DNA from: Candidatus Altimarinota bacterium
GTDB taxonomy: Bacteria > Patescibacteriota > Gracilibacteria > BD1-5 > UBA6164
NCBI GenBank assembly: GCA_013350285.1
Contig: JAAXWG010000005.1
Coordinates: 1 to 64,000, forward strand
Reading direction: 5' to 3'
DNA length: 64,000 nt
The notes under the pieces were generated by a model. It was not told where the DNA came from and did no database searches. It saw only the letters and a list, made by a program, of their open reading frames with translations. The position numbers were made by a program, and so were the translations under genes. Positions 4,070 through 58,622 of the stretch are shown piece after piece; position 1 is the first letter of the stretch; each line of letters opens with the position of its first letter.

Positions 4070-6037
4070 CTAATAAATTTCCTTATTATAACACTCTTCA
4101 CAATAGACTATCTCAGGTCTTTCAGGAGCATAAGTTGTCTGTATTTCTTTTCCACACTTATCACAGTTCCTTGTATAAAGATGTCTTGGATTTCTTAAAC
4201 TCATCCTATCAAGATGTCTTTGGTCTGGATGTCTTCTTGGAATGGGAAGATTATGTTTTCTATAAAAAGCGAGTTCTTCTTTTATTATTCTAAAAGGTTT
4301 TTTAGTAACTTCACACTCAATAGCCCAGTTCAAAATATCATCAGGAATATCTGCAATATTTTCAGGAAGCTTACTTGCAGGGATAATTTTTTCTACCTTA
4401 GGAAAAGGAGCTTCATAAGTGCTGTATTTAAAGACCGGTCTTTTTCAAGCTTCTTCAAGAGTATTATAAGTATTTCATTCTCTATCAATATAATAAAATC
4501 CCCCTGCCTCCACTCCGTTTTGGCTGTCCCCCTTAATAAGGGGGATGTCCCTAAGGACTGGGGGATTAATTGGATAATATTCTTGAGCAACGGTTTCATT
4601 GTATCCAAAAGGACTAAGAGAACTTGGAAAAAATTCTCACCATTCTTGCTCCCCCTGCTTCACTATCGCTCAGCTTTCCCCCTCAATTGAGGGGGATTTA
4701 GGGGGAGTCATCATATGTTCTATAATTTTTGGCACCAATTTTTCATATTCTTCTTTTGTATATTGTTTATTGAGGATACAATAGGATTTATTACGGAGTC
4801 AAATACATCAAAAAAGGTAAGATGATGAAATACAAGAATCACAATAATAACAATTTTTTGCTTCGGGCCAAATATCAATAGAAAATAAACAGTGAAACAT
4901 ATTTACTCATCAGGTAGAAATTTCATATGATAAAGAAGAATTACAACAACTATAATCTAAGTCATAAGAATTGTCTGTATCTTGAATAAATTGGGCATAT
5001 TTTATATTTTCAATATTTTCTCAATCAAAAACAAAAAAAGAGTTTTTAGAATTTTGAACAAAATCACCTAATACATTTTCACAATTTTTTATGTTTAGAT
5101 TTTTTTGGATAGCTATCTTGATTATTTGTTCAAATTTTTCTTTTATATAAAAAATACTATTTTGCTTAAAGATTTCTTCTTTTCTTCTTTTATATTCTTC
5201 GGGGGTATATTTTATATTTTCTATATAAAATGATTTATTTTTTAGATTTGTGGATAATATACAATTACTACATCAATCACAATCATAAATAAAATAACAA
5301 TCCTTACAACTAATACTTTTAATTATATAAAAACAGTTAAAACAAGAAAAAATATCTATTCATTCATAACAATACTTACATTGATTTGCCAAAAAGCAAT
5401 CTATACAACCAATAGAGTTATTTACTCTCTTTCCATAAAGACAGTTTTCACTTTCTGCACAACTTATAATAAGATAAGAATTTTTACAGTGAGTTATTTG
5501 ATTTGTAAAATTACAATTTTCACATGTTTTATCTACATAAAGATTTATTCTTGGAACATTGAGCAAAATGCTTTCAAACTGCTCAAAAAATCATCTACCA
5601 AAATCAAAATCTTTCCCATAATCAGTCGCCTCCCATTTATCACCCCACCATATTTTTTGTTCATAGACTTTATAGGGTTTATCAGGAGAATAGATTGAAA
5701 TAATATCTTTGCCACTAAAATCACATTTTCTTTTATAGAGTTTTCTTTCATTTCTAAAACTGAGTCTTCTTTGTTGTCTGCAATCAGGACAAAGGGTAGG
5801 AGGAGGGATAAGATATTTTACTTTTCCATTTCAGAGATTTTTAAATCCGGACTCAAAAAAAGAGTCCGGACTTTTCTCTCAATTAAGACCGGTCTCCTTT
5901 AAAGAGACCGGTCTTTTTGGGTTTGGAAATACTGGACTTATTTTCTTATAAAATTCCAAATCTTTGTCTGTGATATCAAAATTTGATCCACAATGTCTAC
6001 AAATATTTGTTTCTATAATTTTTTCATTTTGAAGCAT
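4070..6037 (-). CDS. Cysteine-rich zinc-ribbon protein of unknown function
   Basis: 655 residues read through numerous UGA-Gly codons with no TAA or TAG. It has a CxxC near the N-terminus (CRHCG), another in CPDCRQQRR, a long central run of Cys pairs of the type CENC, CIDC, CKYC, CFNC, CKDC, CSNC, and a C-terminal pair CDKCG...YCEEC: a multi-zinc-ribbon protein. A segment reading EWGEFFPSSLSPFGYNET resembles an uncharacterised protein type I recall from candidate-phyla bacteria (from memory, not checked). No catalytic motif is recognised. The gene carries several palindromic repeats in frame (5846-5870, 5885-5915, 4649-4707, 4499-4565, 4430-4443), which translate without breaking the frame. 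Function unknown; nucleic-acid binding is a guess from the zinc ribbons. Confidence 0.8.
4430..4443. repeat. GACCGGTC palindrome, single unit, in frame
   Basis: Perfect 14-base palindrome AAAGACCGGTCTTT inside the zinc-ribbon gene, same core as the pairs at 5885-5915 and 57301-57332. Translated as Lys-Arg-Pro-Val-Phe. Confidence 0.75.
4499..4565. repeat. CCCC...GGGG palindromic element, copy B, in frame
   Basis: G+C-rich block TCCCCCTGCCTCC... with an inner palindrome CCCCCTTAATAAGGGGG and a matching GGGGGA end. It lies inside the zinc-ribbon gene and is translated without a stop. Composition is much richer in G+C than its surroundings. Same general build as copies at 4649-4707 and 56570-56623. 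Confidence 0.75.
4649..4707. repeat. CCCCTCAATTGAGGGG palindromic element, copy A, in frame
   Basis: Starts CTCCCCCTGC, contains the perfect palindrome CCCCCTCAATTGAGGGGG and ends GGGGGAG. Inside the zinc-ribbon gene it is translated as a proline/serine-rich stretch ending SPSIEGE. Closely similar in sequence to the intergenic copy at 56570-56623. Confidence 0.8.
5846..5870. repeat. AGTCCGGACT-type hairpin, in frame
   Basis: TCCGGACTC (5846-5854) and GAGTCCGGA (5862-5870) form a 9-bp hairpin, just beside the GACCGGTC hairpin at 5885-5915. Both lie in frame near the N-terminus of the zinc-ribbon gene. Confidence 0.7.
5885..5915. repeat. GACCGGTC hairpin, paired unit, in frame
   Basis: AAGACCGGTCTC (5885-5896) and GAGACCGGTCTT (5904-5915) are inverted copies of a unit that is itself nearly palindromic. 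The same paired unit occurs in lepA at 57301-57332. Here it encodes RPVSLKETGL in the zinc-ribbon protein. Confidence 0.8.
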
Positions 6038-54120: not shown

Positions 54121-56040
54121 TTAAGAAAAACTATTAATAAATTTAATATTCTGATAAATTTTTTCTCGTTCATTAATTATTAAGAGTTTTATGTAACCAG
54201 AATGACTTTCAGAATCTTGTCAGTGTAACTCTTGTCAGTTTATACTTATTCATAATAAGAATATAAATTTTTTATTAAAATCAATATTAACCTTATTTGT
54301 TTCTAATGGATTTTTATCTTTGAAAATATATGGTTCCTTTTTTAAGGAATAGAATATTGATATACAATTTGAAAAAAAGGTATAATCTTTTAATTTTACA
54401 TAATTTATAAGTATTAAATTATATAAATCTTTATTATTAAAGTTTAATATTTTTTCTTTATTATCTTCTAATTGTAAAATCAAATTAATATGATTGAGTA
54501 ATTTTTTAATAAATCTGAGATTTTCGCTATTAAATATAGTATCAAATCAATTTAATACAATTTTTACATCTTCGGAAGTAAATTTGCAACCAATAATTTC
54601 TAATATATTTTCAAAATTTCTTAAAAAATATTCTTCTAATTGTTCTTTTGTTGGTTTTATCAAATATTTTTCAATATTTATAATTTTATCAATATAAATT
54701 CATTCAAATCATCTATCTTCTAGTATTTTAGTTATATGTTTCTTATCATACGACACTAAATATATTACATTTTTAAAATCTCATAAATTCTTTACGATAT
54801 TTAGCATCATTATTACTTCTTCTGGTTCACATCTATCTAAATCATCTATTACAATGATTATTTTTTTATCAATAGTTCATAGATATTTGTTTATATTATC
54901 TTTTATTGTATTTAAGTTTTCATCTTTAAATAAAGCATTTAATATTTTAAATTTTCAATCTAAATTTGTTAATAAAGAGAGATATGATTTTATCTCTTTT
55001 GAGAAATAATTATTATCTAAAATCTTTGAAAAATCTGTTAGAAATTTTTCAACTATATTATCTTTTTCATAGTTCCAAGGATTAAATTTATAGAAAATAT
55101 AGTTATTTCTTCAGTCTATAAAATCATCATAAAGTAAGTTTATAATACTACTTTTTCAGCTTCACCATTCTCATACTATTCATATACTATATGATCCTTT
55201 TAATTCCGAAGTATCTATTCAATTTATTATATCATATATATTTTTTACGAAGTTGTGATATCAAAAAATATCTCATCATAAACTTATAGGATCATCATTT
55301 AATGGCTTTATATAATTAGATTGTATATTATTAAATATCTTAGATTCTCTTGAATATTTTTTATAATGTTTAAATTTTGTTATTAATCATTCTTTTATAT
55401 TTTTTGAATTACTAAAATCTTTAGGATTAATTTTGTTATAAATTTTCTTATATGATTTTATGTAATAAGCATTTGTACTTTTTTTCTTATCTGTATTTAA
55501 TAAAATTTTTATTTCACCAAATAATATGAAAATAGTAAAAATTATTGAAAAGAGATTAAATGTTATATTATTATAGTTTGGAGAAAAATATATTATCCCT
55601 ATTAAAATTATAAAATTAGGAAGATTTATTAAATATTTTTGTATAAAATTATATATTTTAAGAAAGTTTTTTATTATTATAAAAGAAAAAATTAGATAGG
55701 ATGTTTTGAACAAAATATCTTTATTATTCAGTATAATTGATTGTATTTCTATAAATATACTTTTATAATCTAAGATAAATTTTAGATAATTTATTTTTAC
55801 TAGAATAAAAAAATAAAATAAAAAAAAGAAAATTATTAAGATTCAATTATATACTTTATTTATGTATAAAAGAAATTTTTTTATGTAAATATTTTCAATT
55901 AATATTCTATATAAAAAATATAAAAGTCTTATTATAAACTCTATTAACCAAGAAATTATAAACTGAATAAACTCTATTATTTTTATTGGTATATTTAATA
56001 TAAATGATAATATTTTAAAAATTATTTTCTTTTTCTCCAT
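54121..56040 (-). CDS. KAP-family P-loop NTPase
   Basis: 639 residues. The first ~210 hold several hydrophobic helices and look membrane-anchored. Then a P-loop: SIGIVGEWGSGKSSIINLLY near residue 290, in which all three Walker A glycines are UGA codons, and IIIVIDDLDRCEPEEVIMML as Walker B, the KAP pattern. The C-terminal region is helical. KAP NTPases are membrane-linked STAND-related ATPases found in bacterial phage-defence and signalling contexts. Alone here, next to a DUF559 nuclease; no partner is confirmed. Confidence 0.85.
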
Positions 56041-56133: not shown

Positions 56134-56517
56134 TTAGTTTATTCAAAGCTCTTTTTCTAACTCTCTACAAACTACATCAAAATTTTCCATGATATCTTTA
56201 TTGGTAAATCGCAAGACTTTTAATCAAAGTCATTCTAAGATTTGAGTTCTTTCCTCATCATAGGCAATTCAAGCTTCATCAAAATGAGTTTCTCAATCTA
56301 CTTCAATTACGATTTTAAGCTTTGGGATATAAAAATCAACTATAAAATTATTAATAGGTCTTTGCCTATAAACTCTAAATTTTGAATTACTTATATTTCT
56401 TAAAAATCAAAACCATATCTTCTTTTCTGGTTCTGTCATATTTTTCCTTAATTCTTTTGTTTTTTCTTTAAGCTTTAAATTATAAGGTAATCTATTATTT
56501 AACTGAATTATATTCAT
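56134..56517 (-). CDS. DUF559 (Vsr-like) endonuclease-domain protein
   Basis: 127 residues, the compact DUF559 form. NLKLKEKTKELRKNMTEPE, KIWFGFLRN, YRQRPINNFIVDFYIP, LKIVIEVDGETHFDE (catalytic Asp/Glu region) and LGLKVLRFTNKDIM follow the family exactly. The fold is related to Vsr/PD-(D/E)XK nucleases. A CGA codon stands at the conserved Arg of VLRF. About 50 bases upstream of it (56570-56623) is a palindromic repeat of the family also found inside the zinc-ribbon gene. Its physiological role is not known. Confidence 0.92.
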
Positions 56518-56569
56518 AATTAAATTTTAGTATTAAAAAGCCTCTTGCTCATTTCTTTACTATTATTAA

Positions 56570-56623
56570 CTCCCTCTGCTCGTTCCTCGCTTTCCCCTTC
56601 AATTGAGGGGGACTAAGGGGTAG
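56570..56623. repeat. CCCCTTCAATTGAGGGG palindromic element, intergenic copy C
   Basis: CTCCCTCTGC start, CCCCTTCAATTGAGGGGG core, GGGGTAG end, in the 116-base gap between the DUF559 gene and lepA. Same family as 4649-4707. Confidence 0.8.
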
Positions 56624-56633
56624 CTAAAAAATC

Positions 56634-58622
56634 CTATTTCTTTAATAAATTTATAAAAACCTCACTTGGCAAACTAACTTTTCAGAATTGTTTCATTTTT
56701 TTCTTTCCTTCTTTTTGTTTATCAAGAAGCTTTCTTTTTCTTGAAATATCTCATCCATACAGCTTTGCAGTCACATCTTTTCTGAGAGCAGAAATATCTT
56801 CACGAGCAACGACTTTTCCTCCGACTGCTGCTTGAATTGCTATCGCAAAAAGAGCTTTTGGGACAACTTCTTTGAGTTTTTTTGTAATTTTTCCTCCTAT
56901 ATTTTGAGCTTGAGTTCTATGACACATCATACTGAGAGCTTCTACTTTTTCTCCGGCAATCAAAAAATCTAGCTTTACGAGGTCATCTTCTCTATATTTT
57001 AAAAATTCATAATTCATAGAAGCATATCCACTTGAGAGACTTTTGAGTTCATCATAAAAATCACTTATAAGCTCACTCATTGGAAGCTCATAGGTCAGCA
57101 TAATTCTTTCTTGATCCAAAAAATTTTGGTTCACAAAAATTCCTCTTCTTTCCTGAGCAAGTTTCATCAAGTTTCCGACATATTCTTTTGGAGTGATAAG
57201 TTCACATTTTGCGATAGGTTCTTCCATAGAAATGTAGAGTTCTCTTTTTGGGAGATCTTCTGGGTTTGATATAAAGAGAAAAGTAAAAACTTTTTCTTGA
57301 GAGACCGGTCTTTCTATTCTAAGACCGGTCTCGCCCACTAGCTCACTATGAAATCTATTGTATTCTTCTCTTTTGTCTCCTATCATTTTTACTTTGTAAG
57401 TTACTTGAGGGGAAGTAATAATGACATCCATATTAAACTCTCTTATGAGTCTTTCTCTCACGATATCAAGATGAAGGAGTCCGAGAAATCCACATCTATA
57501 TCCATGTCCAAGAGCAGGACTTACTTCTGGTTCTATTGTAAGGGCTGAATCATTGAGCATAAGTTTTTCTACAGCATCTACAAATTGCGGATATTCATCA
57601 CTATTTATAGGAAATATTCATGCAAAGATAAAAGGAGTTACTTTTTTAAATCAAGGAATTGCTTGGGCATTTTCTACTTTATCTTTTGGTCATTCATTAT
57701 CTGCTGGTTTCCAAAGAGTATCTCATACCTTTGCTTCTCTGATAGATTTAAGTCCCGTTACTACATAGCCAATAGATCAAGTTTCTATTTTTTCACTTGC
57801 TTGGTATTTTGGAGCAAAGTATCCCACTTCAGTGACTTCTATTTTTTTTCCTGTATTGATAAAAAAGAGAGTATCTCACTTTTTTACTTCTCCAGAAAAT
57901 ATTTTTATATAAGAAACAACTCCTCTATAGGTATCATACTGACTATCAAAAACGAGAGCTTTGAGTTCTGATTTTGGATTTATTGTAAGTCATTCTAAAC
58001 TTGTACGAGAATGTATTGAAAAATGAAGAATATCATTTCTTACATTTGTTCCTGAAGAAAGTGCATTTTCAAATACTTTTGGCATTTTTATTCTTTCTAT
58101 TACAGCATCAAGAATGCTTGAAACATTTTCTCAAGTTTTTGCACTTACAGGAATAATATCTTCTTTTTTACATCAAAGAAGATGGATAATTTCTTCCATT
58201 ACTTTTTCTACATTTGCAGCAGGAAGATCAATTTTGTTGATAATTGGAATAATATCAAGGTCATTTTCTATTGCCATATAGACATTGGAAAGAGTTTGAG
58301 CTTCTATTCCTTGAGTTGCATCTACGACGAGAATGGCTCATTCTACAGAAGCAAGACTACGAGAAACTTCATACTGAAAATCTACATGTCATGGAGTGTC
58401 TATAATATTCAGTTCATAGCCTTTCCATTGCATTCTTACCGGTTGGAGTTTTATAGTAATTCCTCTTTCTTGTTCTAGTTCCATCGTATCAAGCATTTGT
58501 CCTCTTTTCATTTCTCTTTTGTCTATAGTTCCTGTTATTTCAAGAAATCTATCAGCAAGAGTTGATTTTCCATGGTCAATATGGGCAATGATACAAAAAT
58601 TTCTAATATGCTCTAAATTCAT
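56634..58622 (-). CDS. lepA: Elongation factor 4 LepA
   Basis: 662 residues against about 600 usual. Ribosome-associated GTPase. [16 protein letters not shown] (G1), ERGITI (G2), then DTPG (G3) at the start; [23 protein letters not shown] and the C-terminal [29 protein letters not shown] with the [15 protein letters not shown] tail are all present. Between [12 protein letters not shown] and [14 protein letters not shown] there is a segment absent from typical LepA, containing [20 protein letters not shown]. Its DNA is a GACCGGTC paired palindrome (57301-57332), inserted in frame. Confidence 0.95.
57301..57332. repeat. GACCGGTC paired palindrome inserted in lepA
   Basis: GAGACCGGTCTTT...AAGACCGGTCTC; the two halves are inverted copies of the unit at 5885-5915. 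In frame within lepA, at about residues 431-441, in a loop that is short in typical LepA. Confidence 0.85.

Follow-up and report, generated by a model that had tools for sequence, protein, structure and literature searches.

The window, that is, the whole stretch of 64,000 nucleotides that was analyzed, carries a gene for a DUF559 nuclease beside a short palindromic element, and this locus raises the question of whether the nuclease spreads the palindrome family that adjoins it, in the way in which RAYT transposases are associated with REP palindromes. DUF559 proteins are widespread and unexplained. The features of the window that bear on this question are as follows.

56134..56517, minus strand: DUF559 nuclease gene, 127 aa, one open reading frame under code 25.
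56570..56623, no strand: palindromic element, consisting of a CTCCCTC arm, the spacer TGCTCGTTCCTCGCTT, a core hairpin and a AAGGGGTAG arm.
56594..56611, no strand: core hairpin CCCCTTCAATTGAGGGGG, from a match search of the window and the genome.
56634..58622, minus strand: neighboring gene on the upstream side, lepA/EF4 by sequence reading, with the element in the gap between it and the DUF559 gene.
54121..56040, minus strand: neighboring gene on the other side, a P-loop NTPase gene by sequence reading.
4649..4707: 59-bp mini-element without a nuclease gene, in frame within a minus-strand gene of a paralogous family.

The nuclease frame was intact when read with code 25 and broken with the standard code, and TGA appears to be translated as glycine in this genome. 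The protein matched the PF04480 profile with 95.7 bits (cut-off, 20.6) and keeps the conserved R-Q, D-F, E-x-D-G, H and D residues. A gap of 52 bp separates the gene from the element, in agreement with the original prediction that a palindrome adjoins a stand-alone DUF559 gene, and the unit of about 54 bp (56570-56623) proved to be longer than was seen then. There is no palindrome in the gap between the P-loop NTPase gene and the DUF559 gene, and the element lies at one end of this locus only. The genome of the window (1.28 Mb in 8 contigs) contains 3 DUF559 genes, and the other two have CCC..GGG palindromes of different sequence types at their edges. Three weak matches to Y1 transposases were also noted in this genome (G000:C6:284-643, C7:251-547 and C8:1239-1406), all of them within 1.5 kb of contig starts, as is expected for a multicopy element that breaks the assembly.

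Searching with the core CCCCTTCAATTGAGGGG revealed an exact copy at 56594-56610 and a relative with 1 mismatch at 4678-4695. With up to 3 mismatches, the window yielded 4 strand matches versus 0.06 expected from shuffles, and with up to 1 mismatch the whole genome yielded 33, while the reversed control yielded 0. The relative belongs to the in-frame copy at 4649-4707, so that the claim of a related element inside a distant gene also held. Elsewhere in the genome, the unit is 59 bp long (CTCCCCCT...CCCCCTCAATTGAGGGGG...AGGGGGAG) and has the outer arms CTCCCCCT and AGGGGGAG, between which lie a spacer and the core hairpin; the spacer TGCTCGTTCCTCGCTT is common to the window copy and a copy at C3:49306 (L014), and many other copies have TGCTTCACTATCGCTCAGCTT. 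Since the majority of the TCAATTGA-type copies sit in one duplicated gene family, at two positions, they represent few independent insertions, and the palindrome count of this genome is inflated by that family.

Paralogues with and without the element coexist in the family. The empty form was found in three of them (L016, L018 and L022) as CATATGATGAAAACATGAGAATGG, one with AAAACTTGAG, and the filled form in ten, nine of which carry the full unit and one a unit shortened on the right side; a typical filled paralogue reads CATATGATGA, the 59-bp element and CAAGAATGG. The comparison, which omitted one distant element-free paralogue (in L019), gave a net gain of 54 bp with the reading frame kept. 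No target-site duplication was seen at this one site of the genome with empty and filled paralogues, so that this single site lends no support to classical transposition. Bases would seem to have been lost on insertion, as judged from the living paralogues, which stand in for the missing exact ancestor of each filled copy. At loci L012-L022, several short palindrome types are patched together in the variable linker that precedes the PTLCPDCR motif; beside the one studied here, they include AAGACCGGTCTC, AGTCCGGACT, AACCCCGGGGTT and TCATTCCTGCGAAGGCAGGAATCT.

The original prediction had called for a genome-wide count of DUF559 against such repeats, and this revealed an association in two independent groups, namely, 145 genomes of the window's class and 249 Pseudomonadota genomes, in which DUF559 is present in 76 and 86, respectively. 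In the class, DUF559 was searched for along with the pattern CCCCCTN{2,30}AGGGGG. The 76 genomes with DUF559 had a median of 11 palindromes (mean, 17.7) versus a median of 1 (mean, 2.6) in the 69 genomes without (Mann-Whitney p=1.1e-14), and the observed difference was reached in 0 of 20,000 trials when the DUF559 labels were shuffled within taxonomic families. DUF559 occurred in 40 of the 43 genomes having at least 10 palindromes and in 36 of the 102 having fewer than ten. In family f13, the counts were 0, 3, 5, 5, 10, 12, 16, 19, 21, 46 and 72 with DUF559 versus seven 0s and two 1s without it. A little of the class signal is composition, because the reversed control pattern was also somewhat higher with DUF559 (mean of 1.9 versus 0.7). 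Exceptions were found in both directions: the DUF559-free genomes G035, G139 and G047 had 27, 50 and 11 palindromes, respectively, and five more had 6-7, and nine DUF559 genomes had 0 or 1.

Ten relatives found in named records came from Proteobacteria, a Bacteroidia and Peregrinibacteria. Counting of the pattern CCCTCTCCCN{2,14}GGGAGAGGG in the genomes of the eight relatives outside the Peregrinibacteria gave 8, 1, 6, 13, 97, 0, 88 and 207, versus 1, 0, 0, 0, 0, 0, 0 and 5 for the controls. In the 249 Pseudomonadota genomes, for which a strong DUF559 match was defined as E below 1e-10 and relatedness was not corrected, the same pattern had a median of 12 (mean, 32.5) in the 62 genomes with a strong match, a median of 0 in the 24 with weak matches only and a median of 0 (mean, 1.6) in the 163 without a match (strong versus all others, p=6.9e-24). 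Five or more palindromes were present in 37/62 of the strong-match genomes versus 10/187 of the others. The pattern was absent from 14 of the 62 strong-match genomes, and three genomes were rich without a strong match: G292 (107), G313 (105, weak match only) and G206 (57, control 11).

A second palindrome type, GTCATTCC..GGAATCC, occurs in 29 of the 145 class genomes and is much less dependent on DUF559 than the CCCC..GGGG type, with t=2.2 versus 6.1 when family terms were included and t=0.4 versus 6.3 when they were left out; on this ground, general repeat-richness was rejected as the cause. GIY-YIG gene number was a weak predictor of both types (t=2.0 for CCCC..GGGG, versus 6.1 for DUF559).

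Palindromes at the edges of DUF559 genes were analyzed at 83 loci, consisting of the three of the window's genome and 80 of the class with flanks of at most 10 kb to either side; the latter were hand-picked among the matches listed, with full-length genes preferred, and are not a random draw. Perfect CCCC..GGGG hairpins within 150 bp of the gene amounted to 3.05/kb upstream and 2.49/kb downstream versus 0.04-0.06/kb and 0.01-0.04/kb, respectively, at 2-10 kb, so that they are about 60-fold denser next to the gene. Within 300 bp, CCCC..GGGG hairpins were present at 50/83 loci versus 4/83 for the GGGG..CCCC type. A broader detector found a hairpin within 300 bp at 66/83 loci, on both sides at 33 of them, and no palindrome at the other 17, while windows moved by 2.5 and 5 kb gave 2/70 and 5/68. 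With the same detector, Pseudomonadota DUF559 loci scored 30/30 versus 7/30 at windows shifted by 0.9 kb.

The two ends of a locus were mutually inverted (score of at least 40) in 14/81 cases versus 3/239 for ends of other loci, 2 of the 83 loci with short flanks having fallen out, and in 12/30 versus 5/89 cases in Pseudomonadota; the GIY-YIG control gave 2/23 versus 0/69. Terminal inverted repeats, a trait of classical transposons and MITEs, are present at DUF559 loci. Direct repeats between the two flanks were also frequent (13/81 and 12/30), which is expected because each end is itself palindromic. The end consensus, read by eye and not as a computed profile, is CCCTCTCCC-loop-GGGAGAGGG-TTAGGGTGAGGG, and the opposite end carries its mirror. 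At two Pseudomonadota loci, L258 and L265, the inverted ends are long (about 70-120 bp) and of the type GGGGGAGAAGG..GATGAGGGGTG, which may resemble rhizobial and Brucella palindromic repeats.

Nuclease identity was then compared with end similarity, after 35 of 3403 pairs had been dropped (28 for the same host gene and 7 for a homologous neighborhood). Within the same family but in different genomes, rho was 0.31, versus -0.01 for segments 1.7 kb off, and none of 1000 permutations of the labels within families attained the observed value. Across different families, rho was 0.19, which is less telling because background segments gave 0.13 there as well. End sequence types track nuclease lineage.

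At 34 of the 83 loci, DUF559 forms part of a single open frame of 330 aa or more, shared with a neighboring protein. NCBIfam named the host family for 28 of the 29 embedded proteins scanned (none for L087), and the remaining five are MnmA split by DUF559 (PF03054); the same host family was recognized on both sides of the nuclease in 27/34 and on one side or none in the rest. Repeated hosts are MnmA (6), Elp3 (4), LeuRS (3, including L024 of the window's genome), RecG (2) and UvrC (2), and further hosts are IleRS, ValRS, MiaB, RimO, RecQ, RarA, Tgt, TsaC, PrmC and riboflavin synthase. At the Pseudomonadota locus L266, DUF559 stands behind a type I methylase subunit in a single frame.

Of the 31 genomes searched for MnmA, 24 gave an unbroken match; DUF559 interrupts it in 6, at profile position ~132-137, and a short insert does so in 1. 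The loop from ATGHYAR to KDQSYFL, a motif that missed 11 of the 31 entries, comprises 17 residues and looks empty in six genomes, holds palindromes in frame in G107 (one) and G084 (two), and measures 152-200 residues with the nuclease. In some other genomes this loop has unrelated expansions, which marks it also as a tolerant site. Three different loops of Elp3 were found to hold the nuclease; one of these contains a palindrome alone in G096 and G140, and no palindrome in G090. Palindromic elements thus lie in frame in the genes for MnmA and Elp3 and in the paralogues of the window's genome.

Group I or II introns were rejected as the carrier, since no Rfam intron family matched across nine loci (110 kb), and so were inteins, since no intein domain appeared in a Pfam scan of two embedded proteins or among the NCBIfam matches of the 29. 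The LeuRS frame of the window's genome (L024:121-4299, contig C3) also contains NUDIX and Ham1-like domains (residues 393-513 and 1243-1347), and an IleRS elsewhere (L078) contains NUDIX-like and phosphoglycerate-mutase-like stretches. No palindromes were seen at the edges of the NUDIX domain in L024, and these extra domains may be older insertions whose ends have been lost, or else fusions.

As for the enzyme itself, the core residues (the Q of R-Q, the D of D-F, the E and D of E-x-D-G, the H and the later D) were identical in 83/83 loci, 34 of which are embedded, and the residues neighboring this core were the same in at least 95%. The E-x-D-G-x-x-H core was present in 30/30 Pseudomonadota DUF559 proteins. 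A sequence profile matched 3HRL, an "endonuclease-like protein" (E=3.5e-34), and the catalytic domain of a homing endonuclease, I-Bth0305I (3R3P, E=1.2e-4), and with an AlphaFold model of mean pLDDT 84.5 the best two Foldseek matches were again 3HRL and I-Bth0305I (2.9e-5 and 1.9e-4). The modeled DUF559 fold is of the EDxHD homing endonuclease type. YcjD was handled as a member of the PD-(D/E)XK superfamily in 2005 (PMC1189080), a DUF559-containing gene found with cyanobacterial inteins was placed in the EDxHD family (PMC9403480), and the EDxHD homing endonucleases are reviewed in PMC3943268. PADLOC gave weak matches only, and a defense system reading was rejected for that reason.

DUF559 is a strong candidate for the spreader of these palindromes because, in bacteria far apart, its gene sits between palindromes that also occur dispersed in these genomes, often in frame within housekeeping genes. 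The association across genomes, the adjacency on two sides and the covariation of ends with nuclease lineage favor the originally predicted function of a nuclease that may spread the palindrome family beside it, and the inverted ends, the empty and filled sites, the conserved active site and the fold were observed as well. Spread caused by DUF559 is the best reading that we infer from these data, and we give a probability of about 0.62 to DUF559 being the mobility nuclease of a bacterial, REPtron-like element whose ends are palindromic and inverted. In its autonomous form, DUF559 would lie between two palindrome ends, and the scattered palindromes would be short copies of these ends that are not autonomous, corresponding to the REPs of RAYT systems. 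The nuclease would recognize its own end type as a hairpin, cruciform or duplex and break DNA at the end or the target, and repair would copy the element in. Insertions in genes would survive if the frame is kept, so that nuclease and palindromes would come to be translated in loops of housekeeping proteins, with the element probably staying in the mature host protein.

An unlikely alternative course of events would make DUF559 a hitchhiker, that is, a homing nuclease inserting in frequent, tolerated palindromes that a RAYT, an IS200-type enzyme or replication slippage spreads. The nearest solved relative after 3HRL is indeed a homing endonuclease, Y1 transposases were matched in 64/145 class genomes, the window's included, and palindrome-rich genomes without DUF559 exist. 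However, the DUF559 effect persisted in class genomes without a Y1 match (median of 7 versus 1, p=5.2e-8), while genomes without DUF559 revealed no clear effect of Y1 on palindromes (p=0.10), and a regression with family terms gave t=4.7 for DUF559 versus t=1.1 for Y1; RAYT/Y1 as the sole agent was rejected, since the DUF559 effect holds without Y1. That end types follow nuclease lineage also argues against a hitchhiker.

Still less probable is a reversal of cause, by which palindrome-rich genomes would keep DUF559 as a Vsr-like repair or surveillance nuclease, for example one resolving hairpins. Vsr (1cw0) does appear lower in the fold search (E=0.076), and PMC12907096 reports a Caulobacter DUF559 protein in connection with the DNA damage response in cells without a cytosine methyltransferase, but such a role leaves unexplained the palindromes at both edges of the DUF559 gene itself, the presence of DUF559 inside unrelated housekeeping genes and the ends that follow nuclease lineage. 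GC-rich hairpins beside a gene are also expected if a horizontally moved gene is simply bordered by intrinsic terminators or insulators, an explanation that we regard as very improbable here: no more than 16/132 and 4/78 flanking hairpins had a T-run, on one strand or the other, at a distance of up to 9 nt, by which most of them were rejected as intrinsic terminators, many have a G-run tail, many lie inside open reading frames, and other genes are without such hairpins (GIY-YIG, 4/23 loci with the broad detector; shifted windows, 2/70).

The likeness to RAYT/REP systems that had been proposed stands for the genetic arrangement, with a small gene between palindromes, many related palindromes dispersed in the genome, palindromes with a tail, and covariation of enzyme and palindrome. 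It fails for the enzyme class, since DUF559 (PF04480) is a nuclease of the PD-(D/E)XK/EDxHD type with a fold near 3HRL and I-Bth0305I, whereas RAYT is a Y1 HUH transposase. The palindrome tail also differs, being a G/C-run (~TTAGGGTGAGGG, by eye) and not GTAG or CGTC, and the DUF559 gene itself, unlike RAYT, often lies in frame in host genes. Recognition of REP by TnpA-REP is the subject of PMC8266576. With EDxHD homing endonucleases such as I-Bth0305I, and with 3HRL, DUF559 shares sequence profile, fold and insertion into conserved genes, but its loci are without introns (nine loci) or inteins (scanned proteins) and have palindromic ends together with end-only copies elsewhere. Likewise palindromic and in frame in unrelated protein genes are the Rickettsia palindromic elements, but those reviewed in PMC10969869 are longer, about 150 bp, and passages of that review name no enzyme for them. 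MITEs and IS200/IS605 ends are similar as short non-autonomous repeats with hairpins; the DUF559 element, by contrast, is without a DDE or Y1 enzyme, and no target-site duplication was seen at the one comparable site.

This REPtron-like element has a fair chance of deserving its own class. A bolder version, to which we would give somewhat less than even odds, is a separate pan-bacterial class in which a nuclease of the Vsr/homing type, equipped with palindromic ends, mobilizes end-only palindromes as well as itself through break-and-copy, resides in frame in essential proteins without splicing, and supplies the enzyme for at least one large in-gene palindrome family. Among the open-licence papers that keyword searches listed, no title or abstract opening linked DUF559 to palindromic repeats, which does not prove the absence of such a link.

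Other nuclease genes were included in the hairpin analysis. The same hairpin method, applied to all 30 Y1 and all 30 GIY-YIG loci, detected IS200-type hairpins beside Y1 genes; the flank tests for inverted ends and nearby CGTC-type hairpins covered the 23 GIY-YIG and 22 Y1 loci of 30 with full flanks, and the broad-detector control covered the same 23 GIY-YIG loci. By reading, CGTC-type REP-like hairpins lie near a few GIY-YIG nuclease genes (2/23 loci, L187 and L194), and the genome-wide trend between GIY-YIG and CGTC-type REPs is weak (t=2.6). A parallel pair of GIY-YIG nuclease and palindrome is possible.

If our main reading is true, DUF559 would drive a family of palindromic repeats by which intergenic regions are remodeled and conserved proteins such as MnmA, LeuRS, RecG and UvrC gain peptides. 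Palindromes would have a second route to mobility, one that uses an enzyme unrelated to RAYT. The spread of in-frame palindromes would then be directly testable, for example with ycjD of Escherichia coli K-12 and its adjoining element. K-12 ycjD (b1289) is a DUF559 gene, which was read in MG1655 by its place; searching E. coli genomes at the DNA level with a distant relative as query gave no match. The gene is adjoined by CCCCTCACCCTAACCCTCTCCCCAGAGGGGCGAGGGG, and a second, partial palindrome overlaps its 3' end. Of 5426 complete E. coli genomes, 3365 have ycjD and 5093 have the 44-base element, at 1 to 6 places each, and because element copies remain in strains without ycjD, the association is loose within this species. 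After fabI, K-12 (L321) has a palindromic element and ycjD, while two strains (L322/L323) have genes for a TetR-type regulator and RND efflux; since the strains differ by an efflux operon, this spot is not a clean empty site. At the tkt-ypfG site, compared in seven strains (L325:1500-1560 and L326-L331), some strains carry a DUF559-type element, and K-12 and others carry a REP-like sequence, presumably a classical REP. Since strains have either the one or the other, the tkt-ypfG site is polymorphic within E. coli.
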